64,000 bases of DNA from Styela clava (taxonomy: Eukaryota; Chordata; Ascidiacea; Stolidobranchia; Styelidae): assembly GCF_964204865.1 (NCBI RefSeq), contig NC_135263.1, positions 15,669,426 through 15,733,425 of the forward strand. The letters are read 5' to 3'. Below are positions 13,015 to 49,419 of this stretch, piece by piece; position 1 is the stretch's first letter, and each line of letters starts with the position of its first letter. The position numbers were made by a program, and so were the translations under genes. The notes beneath the pieces are model-generated. The model worked only from the letters and a program-made list of their open reading frames with translations. It was not told where the DNA came from and did not search any database.

Positions 13015-13151
13015 ATATATTATTCGACACAAGGAGTATTAAGACTAAGCCGATTAAGTAGGCTTGTCTGTGACGGATAATATTTGGACAATATTGGACA
13101 TTTGAGGTTGCCGAATTTTTTTTAATTGCGGTTGCCTGATATCTTGGAAAA

Positions 13152-14735: not shown

Positions 14736-14754
14736 GGTCCTCAGTGTCCGCTGA
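14708..14754 (+). promoter_or_regulatory. Gag-Pol -1 ribosomal frameshift signal
   Basis: Two overlapping canonical slippery heptamers lie in the correct gag phase: A AAT TTA (14708-14714) and T TTA AAC (14711-14717). The gag stop is 16 nt downstream. A perfect 7-bp stem, TCAGCGG (14723-14729) with CCGCTGA (14748-14754), starts 5 nt after the slip site, which is normal spacing for -1 signals. The -1 frame is open from the slip site into pol, and pol has no in-frame ATG near its start. Confidence 0.8.
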
Positions 14755-17700: not shown

Positions 17701-18598
17701 TACTCAATTCTTTTCGAGATTTGGGGTACCAAGAATTCTCCACTCAGATCAAGGAAGAGACTTTGAATCAAAATTATTTTCAGAAATGTGTCAATTGTAC
17801 GGGATTCAAAAGACTCGAACAACTCCATATCATCCTCGTTCAGATGGACAAGTTGAACGTTTCAACAGGACCATACAGCAGATGTTGAAAGCTTTTGTAA
17901 ATGAGAATCGAAATGATTGGGACGACCATCTCCCATATCTTTGTATGGCATATCGCTCCACTGTACATGATAGTACAGGATATTCACCGAACAAGTTAAT
18001 GCTTGGACGAGAAATCGAGATACCTGTTGATGTTATGTTTGGCAAACCAGAGTCATCAACTCATCCTTGTTACACTGAGTTTGTCGAATGGTTTTCCTGT
18101 GCAACGAAAAAAGCTTTTCTTCATGCTAGGCAACATCTAAATGCTGCTGCAACCAGACAAAAGCGAAATTTTGATCTGGGTGTAAAACCACTTACTTTCC
18201 AGAGAGATGAATTGGTGTGGTATTATTATCCACCAAAGCATCGCAAGCTGAGTATTCCTTGGATTGGGCCTTATCGAATTGTGGACTGTTTACCTAATCA
18301 CTTGTATAGGATTCAGAAGAATTCGGGAACACGTTCTCGAATCGTGCATGTTGACAAACTGAGACCTTACCTTCATGAAGATGAAGAAGACAACGACATT
18401 GACTTAACCGGATTTGACATTTTACCTGATGTGGAACCTATTATGGAAAATAATGAGCAGGCTGCTCATGATATTTTTGATGAATTACCTTTCTCTTCAA
18501 GGCCAGACACTGTACCAGAAGAAGTTACAGTTGATGCGAACTCTGATAATGGCCAACGTACTAGGCGAAGGCCTAGATATTTGGATGATTACATTTGA
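14732..18598 (+). CDS. pol: Pol polyprotein of the gypsy element (PR-RT-RNaseH-IN)
   Basis: An open frame of 1288 codons in the -1 frame relative to gag. It has no ATG at its beginning (the listed first codon is TTG), in keeping with synthesis as a Gag-Pol fusion. Aspartic protease: DSGA at residues 49-52. Reverse transcriptase: VPKKDGSTRFCVDFR near 365, LDLASGYW near 412, and FLDD at 476-479, where most relatives have YxDD. RNase H: DTDASGFGIG near 622 and a TDH motif. Integrase: an H-x-H...C-x2-C zinc finger (about 873-920), then catalytic D946, D1006 and E1042, a D,D35E triad. A GPY/F module (WIGPYRIVD) lies near 1178 and there is no chromodomain. All catalytic residues appear present. Confidence 0.95.
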   Translation: MRSSVSAELLLDDGPTNQNIDLNICSLQYDNSWHAKVLVNNQPFNFLVDSGAMTTLIDISIFEAIGGKEAHLAPLEESLVAVGGHDLSPLGTLEVDLSIDSFASRRTVVVANLGMSNGILGMDYLREHDCVLYLSSGHMMIEGHEIKLFTEKSVPCCRVTVREDITIPPYSKVVIPAQLSRPWTKSNLSDVAALVEPLNSSFLADGVQLISSVVDPGKSTVPVLAVNQKGRQLKIRAGSLLGIAHPQLVAQIQVDESDNRVIASELPEHLHDMVNSVEDLTPSQREQLVNLICEFHDVFVGPDGELGRTSAAKHRIITTTPQPIRQAPRRMGWARRKIAEEAVDNMLAQGVIEPSDSPYSSPNVLVPKKDGSTRFCVDFRLLNDVTYKDAYPLPRIEDIIESLNGAQWFSTLDLASGYWQVEVDPADREKTAFSIPGRGHFHFVVMPFGLANAPATFERMMDNILGDLLWNGCFNFLDDVLAHGSDFSMALSNLREVFIRLRRAGLRLKPSKCKLFRRSTSYLGYLISSDGVCCDPGNVAAIKEWKTPNSVSDIRSFLGTANYYRKFVQDYSTIAGPLIRLTRKNISFVWSTECQEAFETLKHCLTSAPILSFPRTIGEFVLDTDASGFGIGAVLSQVQDDNERVLSYASKTMSKSQRRYCATHRELLAVVWAVRHCSHFLLGRPFRIRTDHAALKWLINFREPQGMLARWILTLGAYDFKIEHRPGVKHGNADGLSRQVRKCKREDCSDCGTNGDVAVSNVIVSAISKRPGQSSSDCSDCNWLDTYTDEQIKSWQSEDPDISAVLKWKQLTAQKPDIQEYMPESTVTKRLMSQWDLIFVDNGLLYRRWIPDCKSEESHIQLIVPSNLRQDLFHKLHSLRTAGHLGANRTFKSIRRRFYWPGFKRDILKWCKFCKSCASTKMLYGRRQGDLKQLISEAPMERIAIDFLGPLPVTENGNEHILVLSDYFSKWVECFALPNQRADTTADALVTQFFSRFGVPRILHSDQGRDFESKLFSEMCQLYGIQKTRTTPYHPRSDGQVERFNRTIQQMLKAFVNENRNDWDDHLPYLCMAYRSTVHDSTGYSPNKLMLGREIEIPVDVMFGKPESSTHPCYTEFVEWFSCATKKAFLHARQHLNAAATRQKRNFDLGVKPLTFQRDELVWYYYPPKHRKLSIPWIGPYRIVDCLPNHLYRIQKNSGTRSRIVHVDKLRPYLHEDEEDNDIDLTGFDILPDVEPIMENNEQAAHDIFDELPFSSRPDTVPEEVTVDANSDNGQRTRRRPRYLDDYI

Positions 18599-20814: not shown

Positions 20815-22560
20815 TAAAACAGAACAACATGGAAAACAACAATTTTACTCCATATCACAGCTTCGTTTACAAAAATATTTAAATGTTCATATACCTTTTG
20901 GTAAATATTATTTACATATAAGTTTTGAATGCTTCCAGAGAAGATAGTCCATGCTAACTTTTTTCATGCTGATGCATCTATTCTATACTATCTGTGTATG
21001 TGCAAATCGAATTTTCATTATTTTTAAATAAACTTAACTCTGATCCTTTGTGGGCTCAAATAAAGTGTTTCCTACTTGCCATTGATATAATACATCATTC
21101 GTGTTATGAATATATCCCACGCGCAAATATATTCAGAAACTAGATCTTGATGACACGATACATAACCATAATATGCGTGGTGAAACAAATAATGATGATG
21201 AACTGCAGCTAGTATTCGTTTTCATCTCGCAGTGAAGAGGAAAGGTGGCATAGCAGTATTACTAAATTTACTCGATTTCGTAATTCGTTTAACTTTTTTA
21301 TTTCATAAAGTAATTTTTGAAGATGGTTGGCTTCCATATTGTAATATGCGACATATTGGTTTTTTAATAAGGCGCCGTGAACAATTGAGATCAGTCAGAT
21401 ATACTTTTGAAAAACACGAGACATCGGACCTAGTAGACAACTACAAATTATATGCTCTTCAACTGTTAAGAGAGATGTCAGTTTGTTGAAACATGGCCTA
21501 TAAGATCAACTAATTGTGGACAATTTTGAGAGTGATACATTAAATACACACAAAAAAAAATTTTAAGTTTCGAATTAGTCAGCTTACGTGATCAAGAGCT
21601 GATTTGATGCATCGTATCAATGCAATTATCCGATAAACATTGCTTCATTTGTGATGTGCTCTTTTTTCTGTTCGGTGATAAAATTTGGCTTGCTCTGAAA
21701 ATCATTGTCACCGTTGTTTCCACTATGGGCGTGGCCACAACAATTGTCGATTATATACATTTCTGTTCCATCCGATAGAAATTTATGCCTGCTCCACCTC
21801 ACCCCATTTTGGTTTAGTGTCTACTTCATAGGCCTCCGTACAGACAAACATACAAAACGACATCATTTGCTAACTTTAAAATTCGAAGTATCGTTTAACT
21901 ATGACAATTCAGTATTATTCTGGCATTCCTATTCTATTTCTGAGTCACTCTGCTCATTCAACAAAATATCAATTTCCTGCTCATGTGTTTCTCGCTTTAA
22001 ATTAATAATATGGTGGTGCTCCATCTTAATGAAAAAAAGTTTATCATCGTTTTGTTGCACCACCATTACAAATAAATGTTTACGAGATAAAAAGACGTCA
22101 CTCCCAGAAGCCAGACGTTGACCTAAGAGATTGTAAAATTAGGGGTGACATCTTTGATACTATTTCTGTAGCTTGTATCTCAATATGATAATTAGCCATT
22201 TGTTTACCAATGTATTACGATATATTCATTATTAAGAAGGTTGAAAATAATAATAATAAATTTGGACTGCTTGCCAATACCTCCGTCACGATTTACATTG
22301 AACAAGCCAAAAGTCCACAAAATATTTCTTTTTTACATTATTACCAAACGATAAAGCAAGTTTAAGAATTTTGCCATGGTTTTGATATTGAAAATAATAG
22401 TTTTCAATTTCATTTTGTGTTCTAGGTCTCATACGTTTTTGGACTAGTATTTACAGCTGATATAAATCTGATCAAATATCAAGAAAACAATTAAACAGTT
22501 TATGCAATATATCAACTATTATTTGTTGTCTTATTTCGCATTGATGAACTTACATATGAG

Positions 22561-25500
22561 ATGATAGTTTGGATTATAATTTTCTTGCTGCAGCCATCAC
22601 CTTCAGGTATATATCACAAAGAACAGTAATCTTGTATCTGCGCATTATTTGCAAGTATTCTTCGGAGTTGGGCTTAAAATTATTTTTATGATTCAGTTGA
22701 AAGGGGAACTTGGAATGCAAGTGGAAGCCATGAATACTATGTTTCGAAGGCTGGTATATGGAACTCATATGATAAATCCTCGGAATATTGCAGTGAACGA
22801 TATGGACGATTAGCTCTAGTAAAATCAAAACATATCCAAGAATTTATACAGACATTGGTCACGGATGGTTCAGGTTAGTCGTTTGATCGCTTATATATAT
22901 CAATTCCGATTAGGTCAGAGTTTGCATGTGATAAACGAAAAAGATCGGTAGTGCAATATGACACACACTGTTTAGAATTTAGATTCTAGAACATGCATAT
23001 ATACACATGCAATTGTGCCAAACATTTCATATAAACGTGCACAAAGAGTAAATTGACTTATAAGATGGGAGGGTTCTAGGGAATACAGGGCAACGAATAA
23101 GCCCGGTTAATTTATGCACATGCAATATCATCAATAAGTGCCCACAAACTTATTGGTGTGGAAACTTCTCATCCCAAATCAAAAGTACGGCGAAAATTGA
23201 CACTCGGAAACAAATGAATACCGTCTCTGTTTCAGGATCACCATATGGTTTTTTTATCGGTTTACGTGATATGTTCGGGAACAATACTTTCACCTGGGAT
23301 GATGGATCAGCATTAACATACAGCAATTGGCCTAATTCTGGCTCTGAGCCAAATAACGTCAATGAGACATGTGTAATTATGGGATGGATACATGTTTTTT
23401 ATGCCAATTTACCGTGGTTCGATAGAAAATGCCAAACACGACACGGATTTGTATGCCAAAGAGGCATAGGTATATATATCACATTATATAAATGAAGGAA
23501 TTTTACTGAAACCGAGTAGCTGTTTTTTAATATATTTTCACTCTCATAATCACTAGGTCTATATTGGAATGAGTGGAGTAGATTTTCATCGTGCAACTGC
23601 AGCGGTCTTCAGCAACGTACACGGACATGTATAGACTCTGAGCGAGAAGGACCAAACAACTGCTCCACTGCAGATATAGTTGATATAAATGTACACAAAA
23701 TAGATTTTAAAATATGTTAGCGATTAGTAAATATTATCTCAACAGTACCTACTTCTGTTTTTGTTTTAGATCTTGGAGTCTTTGAGGTCAGACTAAGCAT
23801 GTGAATGCTAATGAAACAAACATTTTTCGAATTATATTGCATTTTTGATTTCTCTCTAGATCCAAAATTGTTCAATTCCAACGGAATGCCCAACAACAAC
23901 AGCATCCAGTCCAGCAACTACAACAGAACTTACATCAAAACTTATAACCACATCTCTCTCCAAAATAACAACTTGTAAATAAATATACAACATTTTTTAA
24001 AATGTAGAATTTGAACCAGAAATTTATTCGATAGAATTGTTATTTCAATGAGTACAATTTTAACCGAAAATTAACGAGTTCCTGAAATCGTTTATAATTT
24101 ATTTGATTTAGTTTATTTGATAAAATCCACTTTAATGTTAATAGTTTTGCATAATATTTTGTTGTAAAAATATGTCTAGTGAATGTCAAGCAGTAATCAA
24201 ATATAAAAAAAAATAAAGATTATGAATATTTCGTTTGGGGAAATTCACAACATCTTGATAAACCAAATTTCACGGCCTTTCGATTACACATTTAGTATAA
24301 CTCCACGTATTTTCATTACGCAGTTACAACACAAGATTCCATGTCAACCTCCACAACCTCTGTATCCGGTAAGCTATCGTTAGGAGTAATATTTTGAATA
24401 TTGCTGGCTTGTTATGGGTGCATGACAATGGAGTTTTTTGTCTTTATTTTGATTACATACAATTTTGCGATAATAACAATAGACCCCATCCACTTCTGAT
24501 CCAACGTTATTATATGTGTATTCACACTGAATATTGAAGAAATTGTTCTTGCTGATTGCTTTAAATATAATAAGATAATAAAGACTAAAAAATGGAAATA
24601 ATATTCTACAATATGATATTTTGATAGTATTTTAAATCAGTGCGTAGTGCAATGACTTATTCTTTTCAGAAACAACACCACTTGTTTATATTGCAATAGG
24701 AGGAGCAGTAATCTCAACCACTGTTGTTTTGTTAGTTGTGTATTTGGTCCGTAAAAAACGGTAAGTCAATTGTCACAAAGTGATGCGATTAGTTTTGAAT
24801 AGTTAAATAGTGTGAATTTCAATATAAGACAACTAAAATATTGAACATTTTTCATAAAAACCGATGGGGCAAGTATAAGTCCTGATTGCAATATAACAAC
24901 TAGGTCAAATTGACAAAAAAATATATTGATATTATGCTTGCCTGTAATTTGTATAAAAGTTAACGATACATCGAAAAAGACCTTAGCAGTAGACTGAAGT
25001 ACAACATGAAACAACTCGGTTAAAGACATTAATTAAACATCTAACTCGACAAACTTTATTTTGAACAACCGACTCAAAAATGAATATTAGTAAAATGTTA
25101 TTTTAAAAGATCCACTAAAAACGAAAATTCCAATGTTGAAACTCGGAATGGCGAAACACCGTTCGGAGAACCAGAATATGCAACTATTGCTGACACTAAT
25201 ATTGAAGGTAAAGTTGTCCTACCATATGTAATTTTATACCAAATGTTTGATTCCTAATTTGTCATGATAAAATATTAACCTCTGCCTCAAGTCCAAGGAT
25301 CATGCTAGCTGTGTACTCTTTCATTCGTGTCTTTCTTGTCATGTGAATAATTTTATGTATATTTATATTACAGAATCTATATGAAATAAAAAGTTGTATC
25401 CTAGATCTGTTACTAGCTTATTATAATCATTCCGTGCTAAACTTGGCTCTTGACCTAGTACATGGTTGATTTGACTTTCTCGACATGGGCTCGCTAGTCG

Positions 25501-27225
25501 TGAGCTAGTTTTTCTAGCAACCAAAACCAGAGGTATATGACAACGTTTACCAGACAAACCCAGAACCCCAATTATAGCTAGTTATTTCACATCTAAACTT
25601 TTCACAATTCTTGGCACATTTTTCATCAATTTTCATTGAGTCTAGAGACATTTGATAACAGTAAAACAATAAGTCAGAAAATAAAAACCGCACTTGATTG
25701 ACAATACAATCTTGTGTAGTCCATTATAAACAGACATCGCAATTTTACCCTCTAGGAAAGAGGATATTCAAATGGTGATCGGAACCTTATACCCATCCAT
25801 TGATGCTATTTCTGAAATTTTCTTTCATTGTATTAGTCTGTAGGTATGCTCTTACAGCATGCATAATTTCAAAAGTGTCAAAACATCCAATCCTATTGAT
25901 GTATACTATTTTTAGCTTCTCCTGGAGGAGAATATACAAACATAGGATCAACAAATCCCCCTTATAGTGAACAAGGCCTCCACGGAAGAACTCAAAATCA
26001 GGGCAAACTCAGCGTGAAAATTACTAACAAAGCGAACGTCAGAACAGGTATGACAAAAGGAAAATTGGCTTACCAGATTACCAAAAATTGAAACCTATTT
26101 AGAAGTATGCAGTAGAAGTATGTTCTCGTGCCATATATATATATATATATATATTCTAGTCCAGTTTTAATACATATAATATCAGATTGACTTTTCTGTC
26201 AACGTTGACCTTTATAACTTTTCTACGTATATTTTAATATGGTTGAAACTTCATAAGACATAAAGAATATTTATGGATCATTTCGAACTTTGCACCCTTC
26301 CATTTGATAAGTTAAACTAAAAAGTTCTACAATTTCGACATTCCTTCAGGACATGATTTGTTTTCCACATATTTTTTTCTTTGAAAAATTTGTCACCGCT
26401 TTGATTGTCTTCCCATTTATTTATAACTTTTTTCGGTCTTCTTTCTTTCCAAGTAATGCGTTAGGGCAGGGATCGACTCGGGGTAATATAATCCGGTCCG
26501 CGATGCTCCACTGAATTATAGTAACAAAACAACTGTTTTGACGAATGTTTTCCTTACGTAACAGAATTTATTGTGCGACACGTGTACACTAAATTATATT
26601 ATAATCTAACAAGAATAAAATTCACAATTACTCGTTTAATGAGCCCATAACTTAATTATAATTAGACTAATGGCAACAAAACGCAGAAAAGTTGATGCTA
26701 AGTGCAAAGGGTTCAATGGCACCGAAAATGTTCAAATGGGATGTTTTGAGATGCAATGCTATGAGGAAATAAATGTATATTTTATTCGAGGGATTTACCA
26801 CTGCTTGATTTGTATTATAAAAAGTACCATCCGTTCGGTTTTCAAGTTTCTAAAAATATGTGCGGCCCGCCAATGACTTGCAAGCCTTAATTTTAGCCCG
26901 CAAGCGACAAAATGTTGCCGACCCTTGAGTTAGGGTATCATTGCGCGCGCAATTATAACTATTGGGTGTAAATTTTGATTTTTCGTTCTACATATTCGTT
27001 TTTCTCTTTAATACTACAGGACCAAATGTTGAGTACGTCAATATATTAAACAGTACCAAAAAGACGGCAAAAGTTTCCGATAGCAAATATACTGTTAAGC
27101 CTGGTACTTCAAAAGAAAATCCAGTGATTATAAATCGAAATGAACAACTCCAAACCCAGGATAAGACAAAGGAATCTGAAATCATTTACATGAATACGAA
27201 AAATATTTCACATGAAACTGCTTGA
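22561..27225 (+). CDS. Receptor A: C-type lectin / TSP1 / TM protein with multi-tyrosine tail
   Basis: Ten phase-consistent exons: 22561-22606, 22697-22873, 23236-23469, 23557-23690, 23860-23974, 24324-24368, 24670-24760, 25110-25207, 25916-26047, 27020-27225, giving 425 aa. Predicted layout: signal peptide (1-16), four-cysteine C-type lectin domain (~17-152), thrombospondin type-1 repeat (~153-206), Ser/Thr-rich stalk (~207-250), transmembrane helix (~253-277) followed by RKKR, cytoplasmic tail (281-425). Tail tyrosines lie in EYATI (Y304), EYTNI (Y320), PPYSE (Y330), VEYVNI (Y363, a strict ITIM match), KYTV (Y381) and IIYMN (Y414). It is probably a plasma-membrane receptor signalling through SH2 proteins; the ligand is unknown. 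The domain combination is read directly from sequence; an immune or self-recognition role is inference. The paralog at 32222-36962 has the same exon plan. Confidence 0.87.
22697..23469 (+). other. Receptor A lectin-domain exons
   Basis: Exons 22697-22873 and 23236-23469 code a short-form CTLD with its four standard cysteines (SEYCSE, NETC, RKC, FVC), the WDDGSALTYSNW core and an EPNN motif. EPN normally marks mannose-type calcium site 2. The partner WND motif is replaced by WFD (LPWFDRKC), so sugar binding by calcium is doubtful. The intron between the exons has stops in frame. Confidence 0.88.
23557..23974 (+). other. Receptor A thrombospondin type-1 repeat and stalk exons
   Basis: Exon 23557-23690 starts with LYWNEWSRFSSCNCSG and continues with QQRTRTC and GPNNC; exon 23860-23974 adds IQNCSIPTEC. 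This is the W-x-x-W-S...C-x-C...R-T-R-x-C...C pattern of a TSP1 repeat with six cysteines. The rest of the second exon is a Thr/Ser-rich mucin-like stalk. The phase-0 boundary (donor GTACAC at 23691) is the weakest splice site in the gene. Confidence 0.8.
24670..24760 (+). other. Receptor A transmembrane exon
   Basis: Codes about 20 hydrophobic residues (YIAIGGAVISTTVVLLVVYL) followed by VRKKR, a stop-transfer signature that puts the C-terminus in the cytoplasm. Unit B's copy is 9 nt longer (three extra residues). There is no charged residue in the helix, so pairing with a charged adaptor is not suggested. Confidence 0.85.
26467..26927 (+). mobile_element. hAT element in intron 9 of receptor A
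   Basis: 461 bp with inverted ends CAGGGATCGAC and, from the right, CAAGGGTCGGC. The flanks are CGTTAGGG (26459-26466) and AGTTAGGG (26928-26935), an 8-bp duplication with one mismatch. Unit B has the uninterrupted site GAGTTAGGGTATC at about 36658, so the insertion postdates the duplication or was lost from B. The interior keeps the start of a transposase gene. Confidence 0.88.
26670..26876 (+). pseudogene. Decayed N-terminus of a hAT transposase
   Basis: A 68-codon open frame beginning MATKRRKVDAKCKGFN. This is the familiar start (K-R-K-V-D-x-E-C-x-x-F) of SPIN/Charlie-like hAT transposases and their domesticated relatives. After this the match fades and the element ends 50 bp later, so the rest is deleted. 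It is not functional. Confidence 0.65.
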
Positions 27226-28566
27226 TTTCAAAAAAGCTCACCGAACATCATTTAAAAAAGAGAAAGTATTCGCTCAGACATTCAGAAGTCGGTGATAACC
27301 AAATTCAAACCAGTAATTGAAGAAATAAACAATTTTCCCGTCAATGATTTTGTTAGCAATGATTGATCTGACACCACCAGGCGACTTAGAACGATTGCAT
27401 GACGTTTTGAATTTGCAGCTTGGTGTATCAATTAAAGTTCCTTCAAAAATATTCAATGCCCTCCGTTCATAACCAACACGATACAAACAACCACAAAGCA
27501 ATTTTGAACTTACGAGACATATCCAAAATGAAAGCAAGTAATCAATCAAAAGAAAAAAACGCTGACGCCGAAGAAGCCATGAATTTTCTTCATCGGATGA
27601 TGCACCCACCGCAAGAGCAACTTCGATTTCACCCAATTCTGAAAAACCATGACAAGAAAAATAAAATTGGAATGTGACGCATCATCATTGAAAACAGATC
27701 CTGATGCTAACAACACAAACGAAAAAAACGTGATTTTCAGAAATTATGAAAAAAGACTAAAAATTTTGGTATTTTTCTAAAGAGGGGCAATGTAAATATA
27801 ACTTGATTGATATCGTTCATCATTTTTCATGAATTATTTAATATATATATGTGTGTGCACTTATAATATAACTATTAAAAATTGGTTGATAGATATCAAA
27901 GGTGAAACTAGCCTCTGCCTGAGAATGTGTAATAGTATTGGCGGATTTATTACGAACTTAACTGTGATTTTATAAGTACTTTCCAAAGTAAATCGACGAT
28001 CGAAAACCTTTTAGAGAAAACCTCGAAATCATTTTTAGAGCTTTTCTGCAAGCATTCTGAATCCGACTGATTGTAATATTTTATGTAGTATTTGGGAATT
28101 TCCTTTTTTAATTTTCAAAACGTACATTCTACTTTATTCTTTTCTGTGTATAATTTTGTCAGTACTGTTTCGCATGAATAGCTAAAAACGTTTGAACAAT
28201 TTGCTAGAAAAAAATTTACCGATTTCCACCTTCCAACATTATTGCACTTTTAACTACCTGTTATTATAATACGTTCTGCAGTTTTGATTTGAAGTTTTGT
28301 CAATGATAGGAAACGGGTAAAACATTCGGCACAGGATACATAGTGGTGGTAAAAAGACGACACATTTCTTTTTCTAATTATATATCATTTTTTGTTTACT
28401 GCACTTTTATATGAATGGGAGAAAATGTTGACTGTGCTGGATAATAGGTTGAATATTGATGACGGATGAATCATTTTCTGGCATGATGGGATAGGGAGTA
28501 GGTGCAACAGTGGATGTGTTATTCAAACCAGCTTGGGCGGGGTAAGGCTCCCTTGTCTGCAAATTA
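27226..28566 (+). other. 3' flank / probable 3' UTR of receptor A
   Basis: Follows the stop at 27225; an AATAAA-like hexamer occurs near 27660. Open frames at 27274-27636 (minus) and 27420-27677 (plus) have counterparts in unit B only at DNA level, with the frames broken, so I read them as untranslated. Confidence 0.5.
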
Positions 28567-28872
28567 CCATGTTTACCCGAAAATAAGTTAGTTACAAATA
28601 TTTTTAAACTAGTAGATACTAAGAAATCTCTCCTACACGTTTTAAATGGATGTTTATGATAATCTATGTTTGGCAGTTATTTTCAAATAAAAACGTGTTA
28701 TTTATAAATAAATGGTATCGGTTTTCATATTTTGTATATTTGAAAATATCGTAACTTTGTAATTTTGTTTTTGATAAATGAAAATATAAGACATCCCCCG
28801 AAAATAATCCCTGGTGTTATTTTTCGGAAGAAAATTGGAATAAGAACACGTTTTATTTTAGGGGAAACACGG
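28567..28872. mobile_element. Mariner-like miniature element in unit A
   Basis: 306 bp between TA dinucleotides at 28565-28566 and 28873-28874. Inverted ends are CCATGTTTACCCGAAAATAA and, from the right, CCGTGTTTCCCCTAAAATAA (three differences in 20). Unit B has the empty site TGCAAAGTAGGTC at about 37950. The TA duplication fits Tc1/mariner. No ORF. Confidence 0.85.
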
Positions 28873-29330
28873 TAGGTCATATGCCGTATGAGTTAGTTGT
28901 CCTCCTATTCCTATTGACCTATTAAAAATTGTACACTTGCGATAGCTTAAATATTATGTAAATATCATATTACTGATCTCACTAATCTTCTCAACTTCTT
29001 ATTAGGCTACTTATGACAAAGGATGATTTTTGCATTTCTTGTGCATTATTCATTCAACCAAATTTATGCATCGTGCATCTGTATGAGTGATTACCGTACC
29101 ACACGGTACTGGCACCAGTATTTCTGTAACTGGTTCAATTTAGTGTTTCTATTCAATGCTATGAGAATTAAATTACCAGTTTCTTTATTGTTTCCTCGTG
29201 TCTTTCAATGCATCCAACACACCACCCCTGGATCTAATTGAATAACAGTGTCAGCAACCAGGTTCTCGTAATCATCGATAACCAGTTTTGGTTCCCCGCG
29301 ACTCAACTTCCCCAGTAAAAATGTGTGTTG

Positions 29331-30629
29331 AAATTTATTTTCTTATGTCGCCACAAAATGTGATATATATTTATATATATATATCAGTGTTGGGTAAGAG
29401 AAGCTAGCTTTGGGTCTAGCAATTCACAGTCGAATCCTTGTCGTGAAATTTGTGTGGCAAATCTAATCGCTAAGTCCCTGGATAGTGTCGGGCTAAACAT
29501 GAAAGTTTTTGCAAATGTTTTTCCCGAAGATGTTATATTATGGCTAGGTCCGGATATAACTATATAGTGAAGACAAATTGAAGCCTGGGGCCACAAATTC
29601 CATAGGAACGTCACCAATCAATTTGAAATTGACGGCACACTTGCACTCGAGTATATTTGCACCCGTAGTCTGCACCCAGGTCATTTTGCATTCACATTTT
29701 TGCATCAATAGTACCCATGGACATTTGCACTGACGGACGTTTGTACCCGCGGACATTTGCACCTAGGACGTTTGGACCTACGTAACTTTGAAGTACTACA
29801 TAAAAAGGATCTTCAAAGCGAGCGACAGTGTGCGAAACAGTGTGGTGTGCAGTTGCAAGTCTTGGAGTTTGGGGTCCTCACTTTTTTTAAAAGGATGAAA
29901 GATGCGGTTTCAGTCACTTAGACACGTTATGAGCAGATGCTGTATGATGCCAAAACTCAAGAATCTTGGAAAAAATGCAACGGTATCCGTCGCTATAGTT
30001 GTATTTTCATCTGTTCGTGGTTTTGCTTCTACTACGTTGATGGATGGAAATCCTAATTATGGGTACGCAACTGTAAAGAAGGTGCTCTTAACTATTCATA
30101 CATAATACTGTCATGCGGTGGTCGGTTGTTGTGGAATCAAATTTGTTTTTCCGTAAAATAATATCTTAGACCAAGTCGTGTCCTGTCAAGATTTTTTGTG
30201 AGTACTCATGACAAAATTATTGGATTTTTCAACTTTGTAGATGTTGTCGATGGAACGAATCACATTAAAAAATAATAGTAGACAATGATGTTTCGCCTCT
30301 GCAAATTAAAAACATGAGTTTTTCACGGTGACCGTACATTTGAACCCACGTACATTTGAACCCATGCGTATATCCACGGGTTCAATCTATATGCGGGTGC
30401 TAAAACCCATGGGTTAGCGTTAGTATGGGTTTAACTATCCGTGAAACAAAAAAAATTCCATAGGTGCAATAGCATACAGGTGCAATTGTCATGGGTTCAA
30501 ATGTACGTGGGTTCAAATGTAATGGAACCGTTTTTCACTGGACTGCTTCGGGCTCATTAGGCAATTATATTTTATTAGTATATATGGCACGCAAGCTTCA
30601 GGTTTAAGCCGGTTCAGTTATCTCCTACC
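29331..30629. repeat. Spacer between duplication units, full of repeat arms
   Basis: 29640-29790 contains several copies of a motif like 'acatttgcacc' with variants, and 30335-30521 contains 'acatttgaaccc' in both orientations. They may be the two ends of one ~0.9-kb unclassified DNA transposon. The open frame at 29902-30105 between them is unrecognised. Confidence 0.5.
30335..30521. repeat. Perfect ~32-bp inverted repeat (fold-back)
   Basis: The left arm, about 30335-30366, reads TACATTTGAACCC twice, separated by ACG. The right arm, 30490-30521, is its reverse complement. The arms are separated by about 120 bp that also contains 'gggtgctaaaaccc'-type short inverted motifs. It could form a hairpin and is probably a transposon end or MITE. 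Confidence 0.7.
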
Positions 30630-31206
30630 GTCATGAAAACGTGACAACCATACATATTTGTCAACGCTGATGGTGATTTGAAATGATGACACCATTGAAT
30701 TCTACAACGATTCTCTCTTTAAGCCTCGACTTCCTTGTTTACTTCCCCCTGTGAAAAAATCATTGGCTTCAAATCGACATATCGTTGGTGAACAGGCAAC
30801 ACAAAAAACAACAATTTTGCTAAACGATCCATATTCCAGCTCGATGTACAAAAATGTTTAAATGTTAATATAGCTTTTAGTAAAGTTTTAGTTTTGAGTG
30901 CTTCATGAGAAGATAGATAGTTCATGAGAAAGTTTTTCATGTTGATGTATCTACCATCTGTGTATGTGCAAATCGAGATTTTATTATTTTTAAATAAATC
31001 CTTTTGGCCCCAAATAAAGCGTTTCCTACTTGCCATTGATATAATACATCACACGTGTCATTGACATAGCCCACTGACAAATATGAAATTATATTCAGGA
31101 ACTAGATCTCGATGACGCGTACATACCAAAATATTCGTGGTAAAAAGAATAACGATGATGAACTGCAGCTGGTATTCGTTTGAAGAAGGAAGTTGGAATG
31201 GAAGTA

Positions 31207-31472
31207 TTACTATTTTTTTTTTCCATTTGGTGATCCGTATATACGTTTTTATTATATACAGTAATTGGTACTCACGTATAGGGTGTGTACCAGGTTAGGG
31301 TTAGGCCATAATTTTATTCCGATACTCCTCATTATAGTTCTATTACGAGTTTGGGGACTGTCTGTGTTAGCCAAGTGAATATACCCCCTGCCAATAGGTT
31401 TCAGTCCCTTCATACAACTTGATGTGAAATAGGCAAACAAAATTAGTTACCTGGAGTTCTGGAGCGCCCAGT
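31207..31472. mobile_element. Unclassified insertion specific to unit B
   Basis: Compared with unit A (21255-21310), about 0.2 kb of extra sequence is present. It includes 'ggttagggttaggccataat' and a run of T at its left. It may be a dispersed repeat such as a SINE. I could not find clear ends or a target duplication. Confidence 0.4.
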
Positions 31473-32221
31473 AAATTTTTGAAGATGGTTCGCAGACAAA
31501 TTACAAATTCTGTGCTTTTTAATACAATGCTTTTTCAACTGTTAATAGAGACGTCAGTTCTAAAGATCAATTAACTGCAGAAATTTAAAGAGTGATTTTA
31601 GTAATAGATATATAAATTAGTTAGCTCACGTAATAATAGGATTAAGATTAAAGATTTTATTCATCGTGTCGATGCCGGATAATTGTCCGATCAACTTTGC
31701 TGCACTAGTGGTGTGATGTGTTTTTTGTTTAATGATATAATTTGGCTTCTTCCCAAAAGCGTTATCTTCGTTGTTTTCACTGTGGGCGTGGCGCGTGGCA
31801 CAAATCCCGATTTTCCCTGATTTCGGCACTCAAGTCGTTGATGTCTTTTTCAATTCGATGCATTTGTTTACCAATGTATTACGATATAATCATTATTAAG
31901 ATGATTAAAAATAATCAATAATCAATTTGCATGCTTGTCAATACCTCCGTCACGATTTACATTAAACAAGCCAAAAGTCCACAAAATATTTCTTTTTACA
32001 TTATTACCAAACGATAAAGCAAGTTTAAGAATTCTGCTTGGTTTTGATATTGAAAATAATAGTTTTCAATTTCATTTTGTGTTCTAGGTCTCATAGGTTT
32101 TTGGACTAGTATTTACAGCTGATATAAATCTGATCAAATATCAAGAAAACAAATAAATAGTTTATGCAATAGATCAACTATTATTTGATGTCTTATTTCG
32201 CATTGTTGGGTTACATATAAA

Positions 32222-35200
32222 ATGATAGTTTGGATTGCAATTTTCTTGTTGCAGCCATCACCTTCAGGTATCCTAAAAACAGTAATCTGTATCTGTGCAT
32301 TATTTGCAAGTATTCTTCGAAGTTATTTTTATCATTTAGTTCAAAGGGGAACTTGGAATGCAAGTGGAAGCTATGAATACTATGTTTCAAAGGCTGGTAT
32401 ATTGAACTCATATAATGAATCCTCGGAATATTGCAGTGAACAAGGTGGACGACTAGCTCTAGTAAAATCAAAAAATATCCAAGAATTCATACAGACATTG
32501 GTCGCAGATGGTTCAGGTTAGTCGTTTGAGCGCCTATATATATCAATTCTGATTAGATTAGTTTGTAGGGACAAACGAAGAAGAATTGTAATGCAATAGG
32601 ATACACACTGTTTAGATTCTAAAAGATGCATATATACCCATGCAACACGCGCGCAATAAAGTCAATTAACTTATAAGATGGACAATTCATTTGAACATCG
32701 GGAAACGAGTGAGTTCTGATAATTTATGCACATGCATATTAATCATTAATCAGCGCCAACAAAATAACGTTAATCATTGCGTCTTGATATATTTTGATTT
32801 GTTGTTTTCAAAATGGTACAATTTTAAACCCAACATTCCCCCGATGTCTTGTCGTTTTAAAACCGATGGTCTTGTGAGATAGAGATGTCAAACCTTTTAG
32901 AATTAATACCTCGTGAGAAATCATATGCTGATTCTACAGAACAATAAGTGTAGTAAAGGAGTGGAAACTTCTCATCCCAAATAAAAGGTGCAGTGAAAAT
33001 CGATACTTGAGAAACAAATGAATACCGACTCTTTTTCAGGAACACCTTATGGGTTTTTAATTGGTTTACGAGATAAGTTTGGGAACAATACTTTCACTTG
33101 GGATGATGGATCAGCATTAACATACAGCAATTGGCTTAATTTGGGGTCTGAGCCAAATAATGTCAATGAAACCTGTGCTGCGATGGGGTGGACACATTCT
33201 TTTTTGGCCAATTTACCGTGGTATGACATGAAATGCCAAGGCCGGAATGGATTTGTATGCCAAAGAGGCATAGGTATATATATATATATATATATATATA
33301 TCACACAATATATAAATGAATGTAGTTTTGAAGCAATACATGATAAGTAATAGTAGTAAAATAAAGTTATATCATTCTGAGCAAATGTCGTACACCGAGT
33401 TTTAGTTCAGAGATTTTTACAAACAATAACTATGCAGCGAAGTATATAATACCACCGATTAGTTATTATGGCTTTCAACGTCTTTTCACTATCAGACGCT
33501 AATAATATTAAAATGAAATGTGATAAAACTTGTAACTCTTTTTGAATATATTTTCTTTCAATAAACCCTAGGTCTATATTGGAGTGACTGGAGTAAATTT
33601 TCATCTTGCAACTGCAGCGTCAACGTCTTTTCACTATCAGACGCTAATAATATTAAAATGAAATGTGATAAAACTTGTAACTCTTTTTGAATATATTTTC
33701 TTTCAATAAACCCTAGGTCTATATTGGAGTGACTGGAGTAAATTTTCATCTTGCAACTGCAGCGGTCTTCAGCAACGTACACGGAGATGTATAGACTCTC
33801 AGCGTGAAGGACCAAACAACTGCTCCACTGCAGATATAGTTGATATAAATGTACACAAAATAGATTTTAAAATATCTTAGCGATTAGTAATTAGTATCTA
33901 CACAATACCTACTTCTGTTTTTGTATTAGATCTTGGAGTCTTTGGGCTCAGAATAAGCATAGGCACGTGAATGAAACAAATAATTTCTGAATTATATTGA
34001 ACTATTTACTTATTTCTAGAACCAGAGTTGTTCAATTCCAACGGAATGTCAAACAACAACGAGATCGAGTCCTGCAACAACGGCAGAACTTACATCTAAA
34101 CTTCTAACAACAGCTATCTCTACGATTGCAACTTGTAAATAAAAATACAGGATTTTCTAAAATGGAGAATTTGAACCATAAATTTATTCTAACCCAATGA
34201 TTACGATTTTAACTGAAAATCAATGAGTTTCTGAAAACTATGGTACTTAAATTTATTTGATAAAATCGATTATTTTTCAACTTATTTACTGGAGTAATTT
34301 TGTATGTATTATTTAAGAAAATCAACTCTAATATCCAGGGTTTTGCATAGTATTTTGTTGTAAAAATATGGCTAGTGAGTGTCAGGCAGAAACAATGTAA
34401 AGAAATGAAGATTATTATTATTGCGTCTGAGGGAATTTACAACAACAAAATCTCTTAAACCAAATTCCACAGCTTTTTGATTACACATTTGGTTTAATTT
34501 AATTAGGTTAACAAGTATTTTATTATACACACTTTTGCAGTTACGACGCAAGTGTCCATGTCGACTTCCACAACCTTTGTATCAGGTAAGGTATCCTTAT
34601 GAGTAATATATTTGAATATTGTTGGCTTATTATGAATGATTTACAATGCACTTTTTCGATATATTTTGATTACGTAAAATTTTGCGATAACAGCAATAGA
34701 TTCCATGCTGATCTCCACTTCTGATACATCATTATGCATATTTACCTTGAATATTGGAGGAATTGTTCTTGCTGATTGCTTTACATATATTAAGAAAATT
34801 GGAAAATAAATTATGCAATTTGATATTTTGATCACAAATTTAATCAGTGCGTAGTGAAATGACCTATTCTTTTCAGGAACAACACCACTTCTTTATTTTG
34901 CGATAGGAAGTGTAGGTGGAGCAGTAATTTCACTTACTGTTGTTGCTTTAGTTGTCTATTTGATTCGTAATAAACGGTAAGTGAAATGTCAAAAAGTGAT
35001 ATGATTACTTTTGAATACTTATTTGATTAACGTTTTTGCAGTGTGATATCCAATATAACTGAAATATTGAACATTTTTCAAACAAACCGATGGGGCAAGT
35101 CAAAAACGTCAACAATTAAGTCAAATATTCGAAAATATGTAGATATTTCGATGGGCTGTAACTTGTTAAAAAGTACACCATACACCAATGAAGGCTTAGA

Positions 35201-36962
35201 CTTGAGTATAATATACTTTAATGTGCTCCAATTAAAAACATAAAAATAAAACATCTATATATATGAGCAACATCATTACAAATTTATTACGAAATTATTA
35301 CAACGAATCTGCTCATATGACAATGGGAATAATTGCTCATGAAATGTTATTTTGAAGAGCCGCTAAAAACAAAAATTCCAATGAAAATACTCAAAAGGCC
35401 GGAACACCGTTGGGAGATCCAGAATACGCAATTATTGCTGGCACCAATATTGAAGGTATAAAGTTGTCTTATATAAAATTTATATTTCAGAAATTTGATT
35501 CCTAATATTTCGTGATGAAGTATTAACTTCCGCAACAAGTCCAATGACCATGGTGGCGTTCTTGTCATGTGTATAATTTTATGTATATTTATATCATAGA
35601 ATCTCTATGAAGAGGAAAGTTGTATCCTAAATCTGTTATTAGCTTTTTATAGGCATTTCGTGCTAAGGTTGGCTCTTAGCTTATGGTGCTAAATGGATTT
35701 TCATGGCTTGGGCTCGCTAGTCGTGCGCTAGTTTTTGAAGAAACCAAAATGTTATGTGACATCGTTTATCAGACAATGTCATCAATTTGAGTCTGGGGAC
35801 ATTTGATAACAGTAAAAAGACAAGTCAGAAAATAAAACACCGAACTTGATTGGCAATACAATCTTGTGTAGCTTCCAATATAATCAGAAAGCGCAATAGA
35901 AAGAGGATATTCAAATGGCGATCGGGACCTTATACCCATCCATTAATGTTGTACCTGCTATTCCTGAATTTTTTGCATTGTATTAGTCTGTATGCTCGTA
36001 CATCATGCATACTTTCAAAAGTATCAAAACATTCAACTATATCAATGTATACACTTTTTAGCTTCTCCTGAAGGAGAATATACAAGCATGGGATCAACAA
36101 GTCCCCCTCATAATAAACAGGACCTCCCCAAAAGAACCCCAAATCAGGGCAAACTCAGTTTAAAGATTACTGACAAAGCGAACGCCAAAACAGGTACGGC
36201 TAAAGGAAATTTAGATAACCAAAAATTGAAACCTATTTACAAGTATTCAGTCTACAGTTTTATGAACTCTAACAATTTGGAAATTTTCTCGTGTTATTTT
36301 GTGCATTCTGATATATATATATATATATATATTCTAGTCCAGTTTTGATACATATATTACCAGATTGACTTTTTTTTGAATGTTGAACTTCATACCTTGT
36401 CTTCGTAATTTTAATATGGTCATTACATTTAATCATTAGACATCAAGAATATTCATGGATCTTTTCGAACTTTGTACGCCTCCAAATATTAAGTTAAACT
36501 AGAAAGTTCTTAAGGCCGATAATTCTACAATTTCGACATTCCTTCAAGACATGCGTTGCATAACCACATATTTTGCAGTTTGAAAAGTTTGGTACCGCTT
36601 GGATTGTCTTCCCATTTATTAACAATTTTTTTCGGTCTCCTTCCTTTCCAAGTAATGAGTTAGGGTATCATTGCGCAAATATCATAAGTCTTTTGTGCTC
36701 GGGTATTAATTTTAATTTTTTGTTCTACATATTCGTTTTTCTCTTTAAAGCAACAGGACCAAATGTTGAGTATGTCAATATATTGAACATTACCAAAAAG
36801 ACGGCAAAAATGTCCGACAGCAAATATACTGTTAAGCCTGGTAGTTCAAAAGAAGATAAAGGGATTTTAAATCGAAATGAACAACTCCAAACTCTAGATA
36901 AGACAAAGGGATCTGAAATTATTTATATGAACACGAAGAATATCTCACCGGATACTGCTTAG
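32222..36962 (+). CDS. Receptor B: paralog of receptor A
   Basis: Exons 32222-32267, 32340-32516, 33040-33273, 33717-33850, 34020-34134, 34541-34585, 34877-34976, 35358-35455, 36062-36193, 36757-36962 give 428 aa. Every exon equals receptor A's length except the transmembrane exon (+9 nt). Layout is the same: signal peptide (MIVWIAIFLLQPSPS), CTLD with EPNN and WYD (LPWYDMKC), TSP1 repeat (WSDWSKFSSCNCSG), Ser/Thr-rich stalk, transmembrane helix, tail. Tail tyrosines are EYAII, EYTSM, VEYVNI, KYTV and IIYMN. The NPPY tyrosine of A is PPH here and YTNI has become YTSM. The start of the TSP1 exon is duplicated in tandem upstream (33475-33764). The acceptor of exon 8 is slightly shifted by a 1-nt deletion but the frame is kept. 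Confidence 0.87.
33275..33301. repeat. (TA)n microsatellite at the start of receptor B intron 3
   Basis: Uninterrupted TA repeats directly after the GT donor at 33274. Similar AT-dinucleotide runs occur in intron 9 of both genes at 26133-26154 and 36311-36332. Confidence 0.9.
33475..33764 (+). repeat. Perfect 145-bp tandem duplication over the TSP1 exon start of receptor B
   Basis: 33475-33619 and 33620-33764 are identical by eye. Each unit contains the end of intron 3, its AG acceptor and the first 48 nt of the TSP1 exon. The second acceptor (exon start 33717) gives the full exon. Use of the first (33572) reads about 33 codons and stops at a TGA near 33668, before the transmembrane exon. 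Receptor A has one copy only. Confidence 0.9.
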
Positions 36963-38349
36963 ATTCTAAAAGCTAACCGAACATCTTTTAAATAAGGAAA
37001 AAAGTATTTGCGCATACATTCTGAAGTCGGTGATAACCAAATTTAAACCAGTAATTTCAAAAATAAAAAAAATTCCCGTGAATGATTTGTGTTAGTAATG
37101 ATTGATCCAACACCAGCTAGCGCTCTAGGCCCTTCAGAACAATTTCATGAAGATTTGAATTTTCAACTTGAAAGTATCAATTAAAGTTCAAAATGTTCAA
37201 TGTCCTCCGTTCATATCCAACACAATACAAACAACGAGGAAACAATTTTGAACTTAGGAATCATACCCGAAATGAAAGCAAGTAATCAACCAAATAAAAA
37301 ACGCCGACGCCGAAGAAGCCATGCATTTTCTTCATTGACTCATGGATCCACCACAGCAAAGCGCAACTCTGGCAAAAAAAAATGTACGTGGAATGTCAAC
37401 TCAGTGAGTTTACAAGTACTTACACAAGTACACCGACGATCTTGAACTTTTATTATTTTAGAGATTTTCTGCATACTAAACTCGGCTGATTGTAATATTT
37501 TATGTAGTATTCTATGTAGTATTAGTTGGGAATTCGCTTATCTATTTTTAAAACGTACGTTCTACTATGTTTTTTTGTGTATAGTTTTATACCGTTTTGA
37601 ATCAATAGCTCAAAACGTTTGATTAATTTGTTAGAAAGACACTATTACCGAGGCACTTTTAACTTCCTGTTATTGTAATGAGTTTTGATTCGATGATGAC
37701 AAGAAACAGGCAAAACATTCGGTACAGGATACAAGGTGGTGGTAAAATGAAGACACCTTTTCTTTTTTAATTGTCATTTTTTGGTCACTGCACTTTTATA
37801 TGAAAGGGATAAAATGTTGACTGTGCTATATAATATAATAATATGTTAAATATTGATGAATCATTTTCTGGCATAATGAAATAAGGAGTAGATGCACCAG
37901 TGGATGTGTTATTTATACCAGTTTGGGTGGGGTAACGCCCACTTGTCTGCAAAGTAGGTCCCATGCCGTATTGAGTTGGCTGTCCTCCTATTCCTAATGA
38001 CTTAGTAAATATTGTATATTTGTGATAGTTTATATATTATGTAATTAATATATTACTGATCACACTAATCTTCTCAACTTCTTATTACTTGTCTCCCTTT
38101 ATGACAAAGGATGATTTTTGTATTCCTTGTACATTATTCATTCAACCAAATTTAGGTATCGTGCATCTGTACGAGTGATTACCGTACCACATACTGGTAC
38201 CAGTATTTCTGTAACTGGTGTAGTTTATTGTATCTATTCAATGCTATGAGGATTATATTAACAGTTTCTCTATTATTTCTTCATGTCTTTCAATGCCTCC
38301 AACACACCCCTGGATCGCACTGAATAACAGCGTTAGCAACCAGGCTATC
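36963..38349 (+). other. 3' flank of receptor B
   Basis: Homologous to 27226-29260 of unit A without the mariner-like element. The Lys/Arg-rich frame at 37200-37445 is not conserved in A and is taken as noncoding. Confidence 0.5.
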
Positions 38350-39062
38350 TCCACCAATTCACCTGTTTAGCATTTTTGAATTTCGTTCAACTGATCATTC
38401 GGGGAATACCCCACGAGCTATCTGGGGCCATCTCATATAACTGGGGTTACCATATTTTTGTGACTTCAAATCGGGACGCCTCAAAAGACAACGACCCTTT
38501 AGCTGTGATTTTGTAACTTCACATTTTCGGATTTTATTACATAGGCCTACATTCCTATATTTAAAGATGTCTCGGCTATCTTTATTGACCATATTGTTAT
38601 CGAAATTTCATGCGCATATTCTCTGTCCAAATATCGGGTTCAGTTCGAAAAATAAGAAGGAATTGACGTTAACGATACCAATTTAGACTAATTAGTATTG
38701 GTTTTACATGCGATATGTCTGCCATCAATGGGAATCAGCGGGAAACGAACGCATTCATCTTCAGTAAGAAAGCTAGCGCTGCGCTACACAGAAACAACAG
38801 CAACGAGAACATGTTTGTGTATTATGCTGGAAAAGCGGGACTTTTGGTTGACTTATCGGAACGGCGGGACAAATCGCTGAAAAGCGGGACTGTCCCGCCT
38901 AAAGCGGGACGTATGGTAAGCCTACATATAACCTCTGTGTCCCGTGGGCGAATGCTCTTGGTGGTTCAGCTGCCAGTCATACTCACCAGCGATACCAGTG
39001 TTCTAAAAACTCAATTTCCTACTTCACAAACGTAATTAGATATCAACCCTTGGGTGTCGCGG
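38350..39062. mobile_element. Insertion in unit B with 'gcgggac' repeats
   Basis: Unit A goes directly from 'agcaaccagg' to 'cgataaccag' (29255-29285). Here about 0.7 kb intervenes. Inside, 38443-38928 has weak inverted ends (GGTTACCATA on the left, TATGGTAAGCC on the right) and internal repeats of 'aaagcgggac'. It looks like a degenerate DNA transposon; the superfamily is not determined. Confidence 0.5.
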
Positions 39063-39692
39063 CTCGATAACCAGTTTTGGTTTCCCGAGACTTCCCTTCC
39101 CGAGTAAAAGTGTATATATGTTATAAATTTTTTTTATAATTGTCAGTTGGAATGTTTGTTATTTGAAGTAGACGAATGAAAGTTGTAACAGAAATGGTAT
39201 GAGACAGAACAAAAGTTTTCTTATCCAAATTTTGTGGTCATGGAGTCGGAAACTTTGTCAGTCCAGATTCGAAAGTTGGATTTTTGTTACCTGGGAGTTG
39301 TTGGGCTTAATGAAAATGTCCTTTGACTTTACTGCCTTGCCTACTCCAAATTAGCTTCGTTACTTTAAATTCAAAGTATGTGTGAAAATAGCAAGGATTC
39401 ATTGTAAATTTGCATTCCAATAAATCATAAAAATATAAATCGGCTCTCTCTTCGCCGCCCGCATTTTTATCTGTGGGAGTATTCAAAGGGCAATGTGTAG
39501 CCTGTGAGAACAATCATCAAACAATTGGTCAACTCATGGCTACAATTTCAAGGAAAATCAGGGAAATGTGCATAGAAGAGTGGGTATGAGTGATTGACAA
39601 TCTGGTCCAGCAAGTCTGCCTTCAACGCCGAGGAGGTCACTTGGAAAATATTTTCAGTTGAGAGTATAATTTTTGTGCAAAACGACCTAGAT

Positions 39693-40476
39693 CAGGGTGG
39701 TCCAAAGATGCGAGGTTGAAGGGCTGCAAACACGTTTGAGAAGGTCTCGCGTGTCGCAGTTTTGAGGGATATATATAAAGCCTTTATTTAGTTTAAAATT
39801 GATTTCCGAGAAGTATCATCATGGTATTTTTCGTATCTTTTCTCGTGTTTGGTTTTGTAATGTCGCTTCAAATTATATTCTGTCGTGACATATATTACTG
39901 GAAACCACACCAGACACTGTTGTTGGTCGTTTTAGTGGGCAAGGAAATACGTTTCCTCCCAGTTTTCCTCTGTTACCTTTTTTTGTGATGAATTGTTATA
40001 TTTGACTAATTTAATAATTTAAAGCGTGAGCAGGCCTAGTGCTATCGTCAAAGAACAACCAAGTCCGTCTAAGTTGGGATTTCGGCACCTAGCCAAAAAA
40101 TGGATTGAGCGGTACCAAGTCAGCTCAGCGTTTTGCCACTGCTTTCACAAGGCCCACGCTCGAAAATATAGAGGTGTTTTCACAATAATGAAGGCATAAA
40201 CGTCTCTCCAAATAAGGAGTTGGCGCGAGCTTAATTAAAGTGTGAAGTTGAGATGAAAACTTATCTCATCGAGTCAATTCGTTCTCTTTGCACCGTCATA
40301 CTGAAATTCCGTGATTTTAACAAACATCATTCCCAACATCGGGATTAGGAAAAGGGTTTAAATCTCGGGATCCCAACCCCTGTTGGAACTGCTGAAAAAA
40401 CTCAAAAATGTCCTGCCAATAAATACAAATATACGCTAAAATTGCTCTGCATGGTGCCATGGTTTGGACCTCCCTG
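39693..40476. mobile_element. Non-autonomous hAT-like element
   Basis: 784 bp. Inverted ends are CAGGGTGGTCCAAA and, from the right, CAGGGAGGTCCAAA. The 8-bp flanks ACCTAGAT (39685-39692) and ACTTAGAT (40477-40484) differ at one base. No transposase is recognisable inside. Confidence 0.85.
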
Positions 40477-40719
40477 ACTTAGATTATTAAAACTTAGGGT
40501 ACAATTATACAAAAACATCATTTGAGGCGCAAACAAAATTGAATAAATTTCCTTATTTTTGTAGAAGTAATAAATTCATAGGTTCTGTTTTTGGGTTCAC
40601 TCTGTAATATGATATACTAATGCTTATGGTTTTTATGGTAAAACAAGCGATGCAAGTGACGGACGCGTGTGGTGAAATGAGAGAAATGAATGATACAAAA
40701 GGGACATGAAATTACCTCC

Positions 40720-40885
40720 TGTATGTAAACGTGACTATCATGCATATTTGTTAACAGTGATGATGACACCATTGAATTCTACAACGAGTCTCTTTTCAAG
40801 CATCTACTTCCTGGTTTACTTCCTGCTGTGAAAAAATCATTGGCCTCAAATCGATATATCGTTGGTGAACAGAACCGATAACTTT
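40720..40885 (+). repeat. Stub of a third receptor unit
   Basis: Matches 30640-30800, the start of unit B, including 'tgaaaaaatcattgg' and 'atatcgttggtgaacag'. The similarity stops at about 40880. It is about 10.09 kb from the matching point in unit B, the same period as A to B, so the array once extended further or the sequence was left by unequal exchange. Confidence 0.75.

Positions 40886-44357: not shown

Positions 44358-49419
<5,062 letters not shown>

Follow-up and report, generated by a model that had tools for sequence, protein, structure and literature searches.

What do two neighbouring, uncharacterised genes of the ascidian Styela clava encode, and could they belong to a system that tells self from non-self? 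The genes, here called A and B, lie in a window of 64,000 nucleotides (G000:C18:15669426-15733425, within the 376.6 Mb S. clava assembly), to which all positions below refer unless another contig is named. Each is predicted to encode a type I receptor with a C-type lectin domain (CTLD), a thrombospondin type-1 repeat (TSP1), a Ser/Thr stalk, a transmembrane (TM) helix and a multi-tyrosine tail. A and B are, we think, probably surface receptors of the innate-immune type, from a Styela family that would join one ectodomain module to several tyrosine tails; the larger story lies beyond the window pair, in relatives on contig C5.

Gene structure and selection on the pair

Gene A (LOC144432167) spans 22561-27225 and gene B (LOC120340458 isoform X2) 32222-36962, both on the + strand. 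Our splice models have ten exons each, those of A at 22561-22606, 22697-22873, 23236-23469, 23557-23690, 23860-23974, 24324-24368, 24670-24760, 25110-25207, 25916-26047 and 27020-27225, and those of B at 32222-32267, 32340-32516, 33040-33273, 33717-33850, 34020-34134, 34541-34585, 34877-34976, 35358-35455, 36062-36193 and 36751-36962. All 18 introns are GT-AG, the entry phases of all ten exons are equal between A and B, and the translations are identical, letter for letter, to predicted S. clava proteins at NCBI (P0001 for A and P0002 for B), both uncharacterised. These open, phase-matched models, equal to NCBI's, bear out the original prediction of two adjacent ten-exon genes with one shared architecture; its product lengths of 425 and 428 amino acids (aa) hold for A (425 aa), whereas B has 430 aa in the model, and 428 aa only with the last exon begun at an AG 6 bases downstream.

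The genes stand in a tandem duplication of two units about 10 kb apart, with a similarity of about 76-91% over the stretches that align, counting introns and flanks. Unit 1 (20849-29324) carries A and is alignable at about 76-89% to unit 2 (30828-39113), which carries B; an extra match of 113 bp, 91% alike, lies between 30683-30795 and 40760-40872. Similar minus-strand open frames, both containing ...MPENDSS..., occur downstream of A (28407-28676) and of B (37785-38036).

We compared A with B by the ratio of nonsynonymous to synonymous substitution rates (dN/dS; NG86 with site bootstrap). The overall value of 0.39 (bootstrap 0.28-0.54) marks A and B as genes more than chance, and values were low by part as well (CTLD 0.30, stalk 0.25, TSP1 0.43, tail exon 10 0.27), so that both copies look maintained under purifying selection. 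Diversifying selection in the lectin domain of A and B is ruled out by the CTLD value, and the loop EPNNVNETC is identical in A, B, P0003 (another protein of LOC120340458) and P0004, the closest paralogue.

Ectodomain, stalk and transmembrane helix

The product of either gene runs from a hydrophobic leader (A exon 1, 22561-22606, +; from the splice model, judged a signal peptide by eye) through CTLD, TSP1 and a Ser/Thr-rich stalk to a single TM helix and the tail. The predicted C-type lectin domain was confirmed by domain search, PF00059 scoring 64.7 bits in A (exons 2-3, 22697-23469, +; residues 39-150) and 64.5 bits in B (exons 2-3, 32340-33273, +) against a Pfam cut-off of 22.6 bits, and the four conserved Cys stand at 47, 120, 140 and 148. 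The best sequence matches of the ectodomain in the PDB are CTLDs of mannose-receptor-type proteins, endocytic receptors among them.

TSP1 and the start of the stalk are encoded by exons 4-5 (A 23557-23974, +, with WNEW and six Cys; B 33717-34134, +, with WSDW and six Cys). The claim of a TSP1 repeat stood by its landmarks and fell short by profile: WxxW at 156 and six Cys at 165, 167, 177, 188, 201 and 207 are in register with the relatives and invariant or nearly so in a 16-member alignment, while PF00090 scored 13.5 bits in A and 12.9 bits in B, both under its cut-off of 21.6 bits. PF00090 was matched at E ≤ 0.01 in 9 of the 16 family members, and the TSP1 exons of the window were not among the matches listed by a genome-wide TSP_1 profile search, which scored the best 150 of 1060 candidates. 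Intron 3 of B contains part of the TSP1-exon stretch a second time (33532-33619, +; 85.6% to A 23516-23604).

The stalk, proposed as mucin-like, is rich in Ser and Thr, which together make up 28 of 47 residues in A and 25 of 47 in B. Its remainder and the TM helix occupy exons 6-7 (A 24324-24760, +; B 34541-34976, +, placed by hydropathy), and the expected single helix between stalk and tail coincides in A with a hydropathy maximum at residue 256, its charged residues being confined to the inner end.

Tyrosine tails and their relics

Exons 8-10 encode the tails, with PEYATI, GEYTNI, VEYVNI and IIYMNT in A (25110-27225, +) and PEYAII, GEYTSM, VEYVNI and IIYMNT in B (35358-36962, +); the positions PEYA, GEY/GDY, VEYVNI and IIYMNT are kept in A, B and P0003. 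The strict immunoreceptor tyrosine-based inhibitory motif (ITIM) that had been pointed out, defined as [SIVL]xYxx[ILV] in the cytoplasmic tail, is indeed present once per tail as VEYVNI (at 361 in A and 366 in B) and again in P0003. VEYVNI is also a YxN motif, so with this single match per tail the signal could have either sign. An activation motif (ITAM, tested as YxxI/L-x(6-12)-YxxI/L kept among relatives) fits A formally as YATI-x12-YTNI; it was absent from the other 15 of the 16 proteins and was set aside.

The long-tailed paralogue P0004 has eight YxxI/L/V motifs vs. 2.07 expected, a count reached in none of 5000 shuffles, and such motifs exceeded shuffles at P < 0.01 in seven of the 16 proteins (P0004, P0009-P0012, P0014 and P0016). 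Relics of a longer tail lie behind both stops: behind that of A at 27256-27726 (+), where tblastn aligned pieces to residues 416-622 of P0004 (a small search, with E 7.7e-15 at best and only 0.008 for the last piece, 27688-27726), and behind that of B at 36988-37355 (+), matching the distal tail of P0004 (E 1e-19, also in a small search). In rows with E < 0.001 every P0004 tyrosine is replaced in A and in B, and stops or frame breaks occur. Our reading is that A and B underwent tail shortening, a gain in P0004 being the less likely opposite.

A family in the Styela genome

Genome searches, which score the best candidates only, gave 101 exon matches with A as query, in the window on C18 and at C5:10.48-10.85 Mb, with a few on C1, C3 and C13. 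A block of about 335 kb on that other chromosome (C5:10.51-10.85 Mb) holds 16 tail exons of YEEI type, four with a stop in the aligned stretch, and eight of YATV type, three with a stop (7 of 24 in total); a lectin-exon query found 46 matches in the genome, 24 of them on C5 at 71-96% identity. P0004 (LOC120344887, 622 aa) maps to C5:10481293-10491926, its exon matches following in sequence along a single strand. C1 carries a divergent relative with CTLD and TSP1 matches from C1:27143443, and TM-like and YDDTG-rich open frames downstream were assigned to the same gene by eye. Counting the two window genes, the 24 tail exons, P0004, L060 and the C1 gene, the family has about 29 members among the best-scored candidates, some of them probably broken.

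The annotated relatives share CTLD, TSP1, stalk, TM helix and tyrosine tail, and all are named 'uncharacterized protein'; those on C5 (LOC144422796, LOC144422855-857, LOC144422995-996, LOC120344507, LOC120344702 and others) have one to three CTLDs each and tails other than those of A and B. Three protein searches over 5.8 billion sequences returned 6, 16 and 13 rows, all from S. clava; these searches were word-based and pick up only sequences of similar length with 5-residue words in common, so distant relatives may have escaped them. With every row from one species and relatives on C18, C5 and C1, the suggestion of a lineage-specific family was upheld. Literature searches, mainly outside subscription papers, found no description of this CTLD-TSP1 family, and A and B appear, on the sequence evidence, as a pair of conserved architecture forming one branch of an undescribed gene family. 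Two C5 copies about 13.4 kb apart (10780370-10783416 and 10793756-10796802) have an identical lectin-exon protein and equal tail scores, and would be a very recent duplication.

Heads and tails have mostly been inherited together. In a lectin exon tree of 25 rows (without L056, L057 and L060), labelled by the nearest downstream tail exon, the labels were so strongly clustered that none of 500 shuffles was as low for E and one of 500 for V. YATV-tailed L055 nonetheless pairs, with support 97/89, with L051, whose YEEI label comes from position alone, and the starred branches cannot be explained with fewer than two label changes; of the 21 inner branches, 13 were without support. Exact pairs, found by eye, join C5 lectin exon L055 to P0016 with its YATV tail and L034 to P0006 with its YEEI tail.

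Proposed mechanism and points against it

SH2 domains are known to pair as YATV with the SHP type, YEEI with the Src type and YxN with Grb2. We infer the ligand, the phosphorylation, the docking, the cell type and the sign of the signal. On this view the ligand of the lectin head would sit on microbes, on altered self or on other cells, and TSP1 and stalk would keep the head away from the membrane. Once phosphorylated by Src-type kinases, the tail would offer docking sites to SH2 proteins. An SHP-type phosphatase might bind VEYVNI, as might Grb2 through the YxN pattern; YMNT and YTNI are further candidate sites for Grb2. Among the relatives on C5, the matching partners would be SHP-type SH2 domains for YATV and Src-type ones for YEEI. 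At C8:10921780-10925824 a single strand carries exon matches to SH2, SH2 and protein tyrosine phosphatase (PTP), in that order, arranged as in an SHP phosphatase and putatively forming one gene. Botryllus, also a styelid, is reported to express homologues of shp-1, Grb2 and the Src and Syk families (PMC12065747).

Several observations weigh against reading A and B as signalling lectin receptors. EPN of the calcium site is present at 112, and WND reads WFD (A) or WYD (B) at 135, so that neither domain has the EPN and WND of a calcium-dependent mannose-type CTLD; without the Asn of WND, calcium-dependent sugar binding is doubtful. The motifs that led the tail to be called rich in SH2-type tyrosines are there, but their numbers in A and B are within chance by shuffling: three YxxI/L/V vs. 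1.07 expected in A (P = 0.07) and two vs. 0.68 in B (P = 0.14). Nine of the 16 proteins (A, B, P0003, P0013, P0015 and four of YEEI type) were likewise not above shuffles. Tail tyrosines were invariant in 4 of 6 positions vs. 53 of 139 for other residues, in four sequences, which is a trend only, and tail exons 8-9 gave a dN/dS of 1.06 between A and B.

Comparison with known receptor systems

Lectin receptors of the vertebrate natural killer (NK) complex are type II proteins, and tunicates are the sister group of vertebrates. The CD94-like receptor of Botryllus is a type II membrane protein (PMC5465252). A and B resemble the CD94-like receptors of Botryllus and Ciona and the vertebrate NK-complex receptors in that a membrane receptor, in A and B putatively one of blood cells, carries a CTLD, but differ in being type I (CTLD at 39-150, TM helix from about 256, tail after it, and so not the type II orientation), in having TSP1 and in the tail. 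Orientation, with the head N-terminal, rules out the kinship with vertebrate NK lectin receptors that the original prediction had evoked. The mannose-receptor family, whose members have many CTLDs with FNII and ricin-type domains, is likewise type I and supplies the closest PDB sequence matches to the CTLD; A and B differ from it by a single CTLD, TSP1 and a multi-tyrosine tail.

The fester co-receptors (FcoR) of Botryllus schlosseri are a type I multigene family with a long tail carrying ITIM or core Y-x-x-I/L/V motifs, and allorecognition in Botryllus involves ITIM and hemITAM tails on immunoglobulin (Ig)/sushi heads (PMC12065747). The likeness extends to the styelid host, type I orientation, multigene nature and ITIM or Y-x-x-I/L/V tail; the heads differ, being IgV, sushi and two C2-type Ig domains in FcoR and CTLD plus TSP1 in A and B. 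Pfam gave no Ig or sushi domain in A or B at E ≤ 1, and the families that the 16 members matched at E ≤ 0.01 include neither. With different head domains, the A/B family may work like FcoR but is not a member of it; the words lectin, thrombospondin and Styela are absent from the main text of PMC12065747. In sea slugs, CTLD and TSP1 receptors are placed in separate classes, and no CTLD-TSP1 receptor was met among the classes in the accessible part of PMC7663992. If true, a second type of head on tails of this sort in the family to which Botryllus belongs, with variable binding faces and several tails, would show paired-receptor logic to have been reached independently once more, and it supplies concrete genes for recognition in a solitary ascidian.

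Variable heads and rival explanations

The lectin exon set held 28 loci, of which L056 was left out (L062 and L063 were not used) and 27 remained, 23 of them on C5. Selection was counted over these 23 C5 exons, including the identical proteins L052/L053 and also L057, whose match row lists a stop. Scaffold columns 1-32 gave a dN/dS of 0.29 by pooled pairs and 0.36 by tree counts, vs. 1.33 and 1.24 in binding-side columns 33-70; without columns lacking synonymous sites the values were 0.32 and 1.39, column permutation P = 0.0004. The bootstrap interval of the binding-side value (0.86-2.19) includes 1 and pooled pairs share ancestry, so the contrast is clear and positive selection is not proven; in single-site tests on the C5 lectin exons the smallest listed P was 0.032, not significant after correction. 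Among the 23 exon proteins, 22 differ.

A second kind of variability appears in LOC120344507, present in two annotation sets as P0009 (UniRef/nr) and P0010 (NCBI, on the contig of this assembly). The two are 77% identical in CTLD1, 82% in CTLD2, 95% in both TSP1 repeats, 92% in the stalk, 100% in the TM helix and 98% in the tail, and we take them to stem from different animals. CTLD1 of P0010 equals L043, whereas that of P0009 shares no more than 77.6% identity with any one of the 27 exons in the comparison, which makes mis-joined reference exons a less likely source of the difference, though a copy beyond those 27 could match. The idea of self/non-self recognition draws on this lectin-specific difference and on the variable binding side of the C5 relatives, and is not borne out in the pair itself, with its CTLD dN/dS of 0.30 and constant loop; such recognition is no more than possible. 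The family looks equipped to recognise a range of targets, which might be microbes or other individuals.

These data could be read as a polymorphic allorecognition system of a solitary styelid, in which variable heads would read an individual-specific ligand and exchanged tails would set the outcome, parallel to fester/FcoR of Botryllus with unrelated heads. Differences concentrated in CTLD1 and CTLD2 of LOC120344507, a CTLD1 in the older annotation (P0009) unlike the reference exons compared, the binding-side dN/dS of about 1.3 and the diversity of the C5 exon proteins all fit, as do allograft rejection in solitary Styela plicata, named in titles that PMC5465252 cites, and the contact reactions described in its text for hemocytes of solitary ascidians. 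We nevertheless consider this unlikely: CTLD and loop are conserved in the window pair, the comparison is of two versions of one gene whose status as alleles from two animals we infer, and microbe recognition would likewise yield variable heads. P0003 and B, both LOC120340458, differ over their full length (77% identical overall, 75% in the tail), a pattern as consistent with another copy as with an allele, and whether tunic fusion in S. plicata is discriminatory is called unclear (PMC7344649).

A broader conjecture, which we hold distinctly improbable, is that solitary styelids have a lectin-based self/non-self system resembling the NK complex, having arisen apart from the Ig/sushi FcoR of colonial styelids and from vertebrate NK receptors, with polymorphic, variable CTLD-TSP1 heads recombined with phosphatase-type (YATV), Src-type (YEEI) and other tails and the window pair as a conserved short-tailed branch.

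Adhesion, uptake or gamete recognition in place of immunity, with tails steering endocytosis (through YxxPhi) or the cytoskeleton, seems no less doubtful. YxxPhi is a general sorting signal that YxxI/L/V also fits, TSP1 is common in adhesion proteins, and endocytic receptors are among the best PDB matches; the strict ITIM, YATV and YEEI tails in one family, together with a variable binding side, suit immune receptors better. That A and B are decaying duplicates without function might be argued from the relics behind both stops and from tail exons 8-9, but is very improbable given open frames, intact splice sites and the overall dN/dS of 0.39 (bootstrap 0.28-0.54). It is scarcely credible that head and tail exons belong to separate genes joined only in the model, when identical joins yield open products with matching phases from both genes, NCBI models agree and the P0004 exon matches lie in order on one strand of C5.

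Neighbouring and other loci

Upstream of the pair, a Gypsy-like retroelement (13140-18598, +) has a 531-aa frame, in which zinc-knuckle-like Cys/His motifs were noted by eye, followed by a second frame of 1306 aa with protease, reverse transcriptase, RNase H and integrase domains. An open frame of 1016 aa at 44358-47408 (-), one uninterrupted exon, resembles a SERCA-type P-type ATPase by eye. Elsewhere in the genome, Y_phosphatase exon matches form dense clusters at C1:24.80-26.37 Mb, C2:10.87-11.45 Mb and C3:17.95-18.24 Mb. Inside the C2 cluster or close to it there are also Lectin_C exons (C2:10848122, 11270140, 11301881, 11358026 and 11487513), and the two kinds of exon there may belong to lectin-bearing receptor phosphatases.

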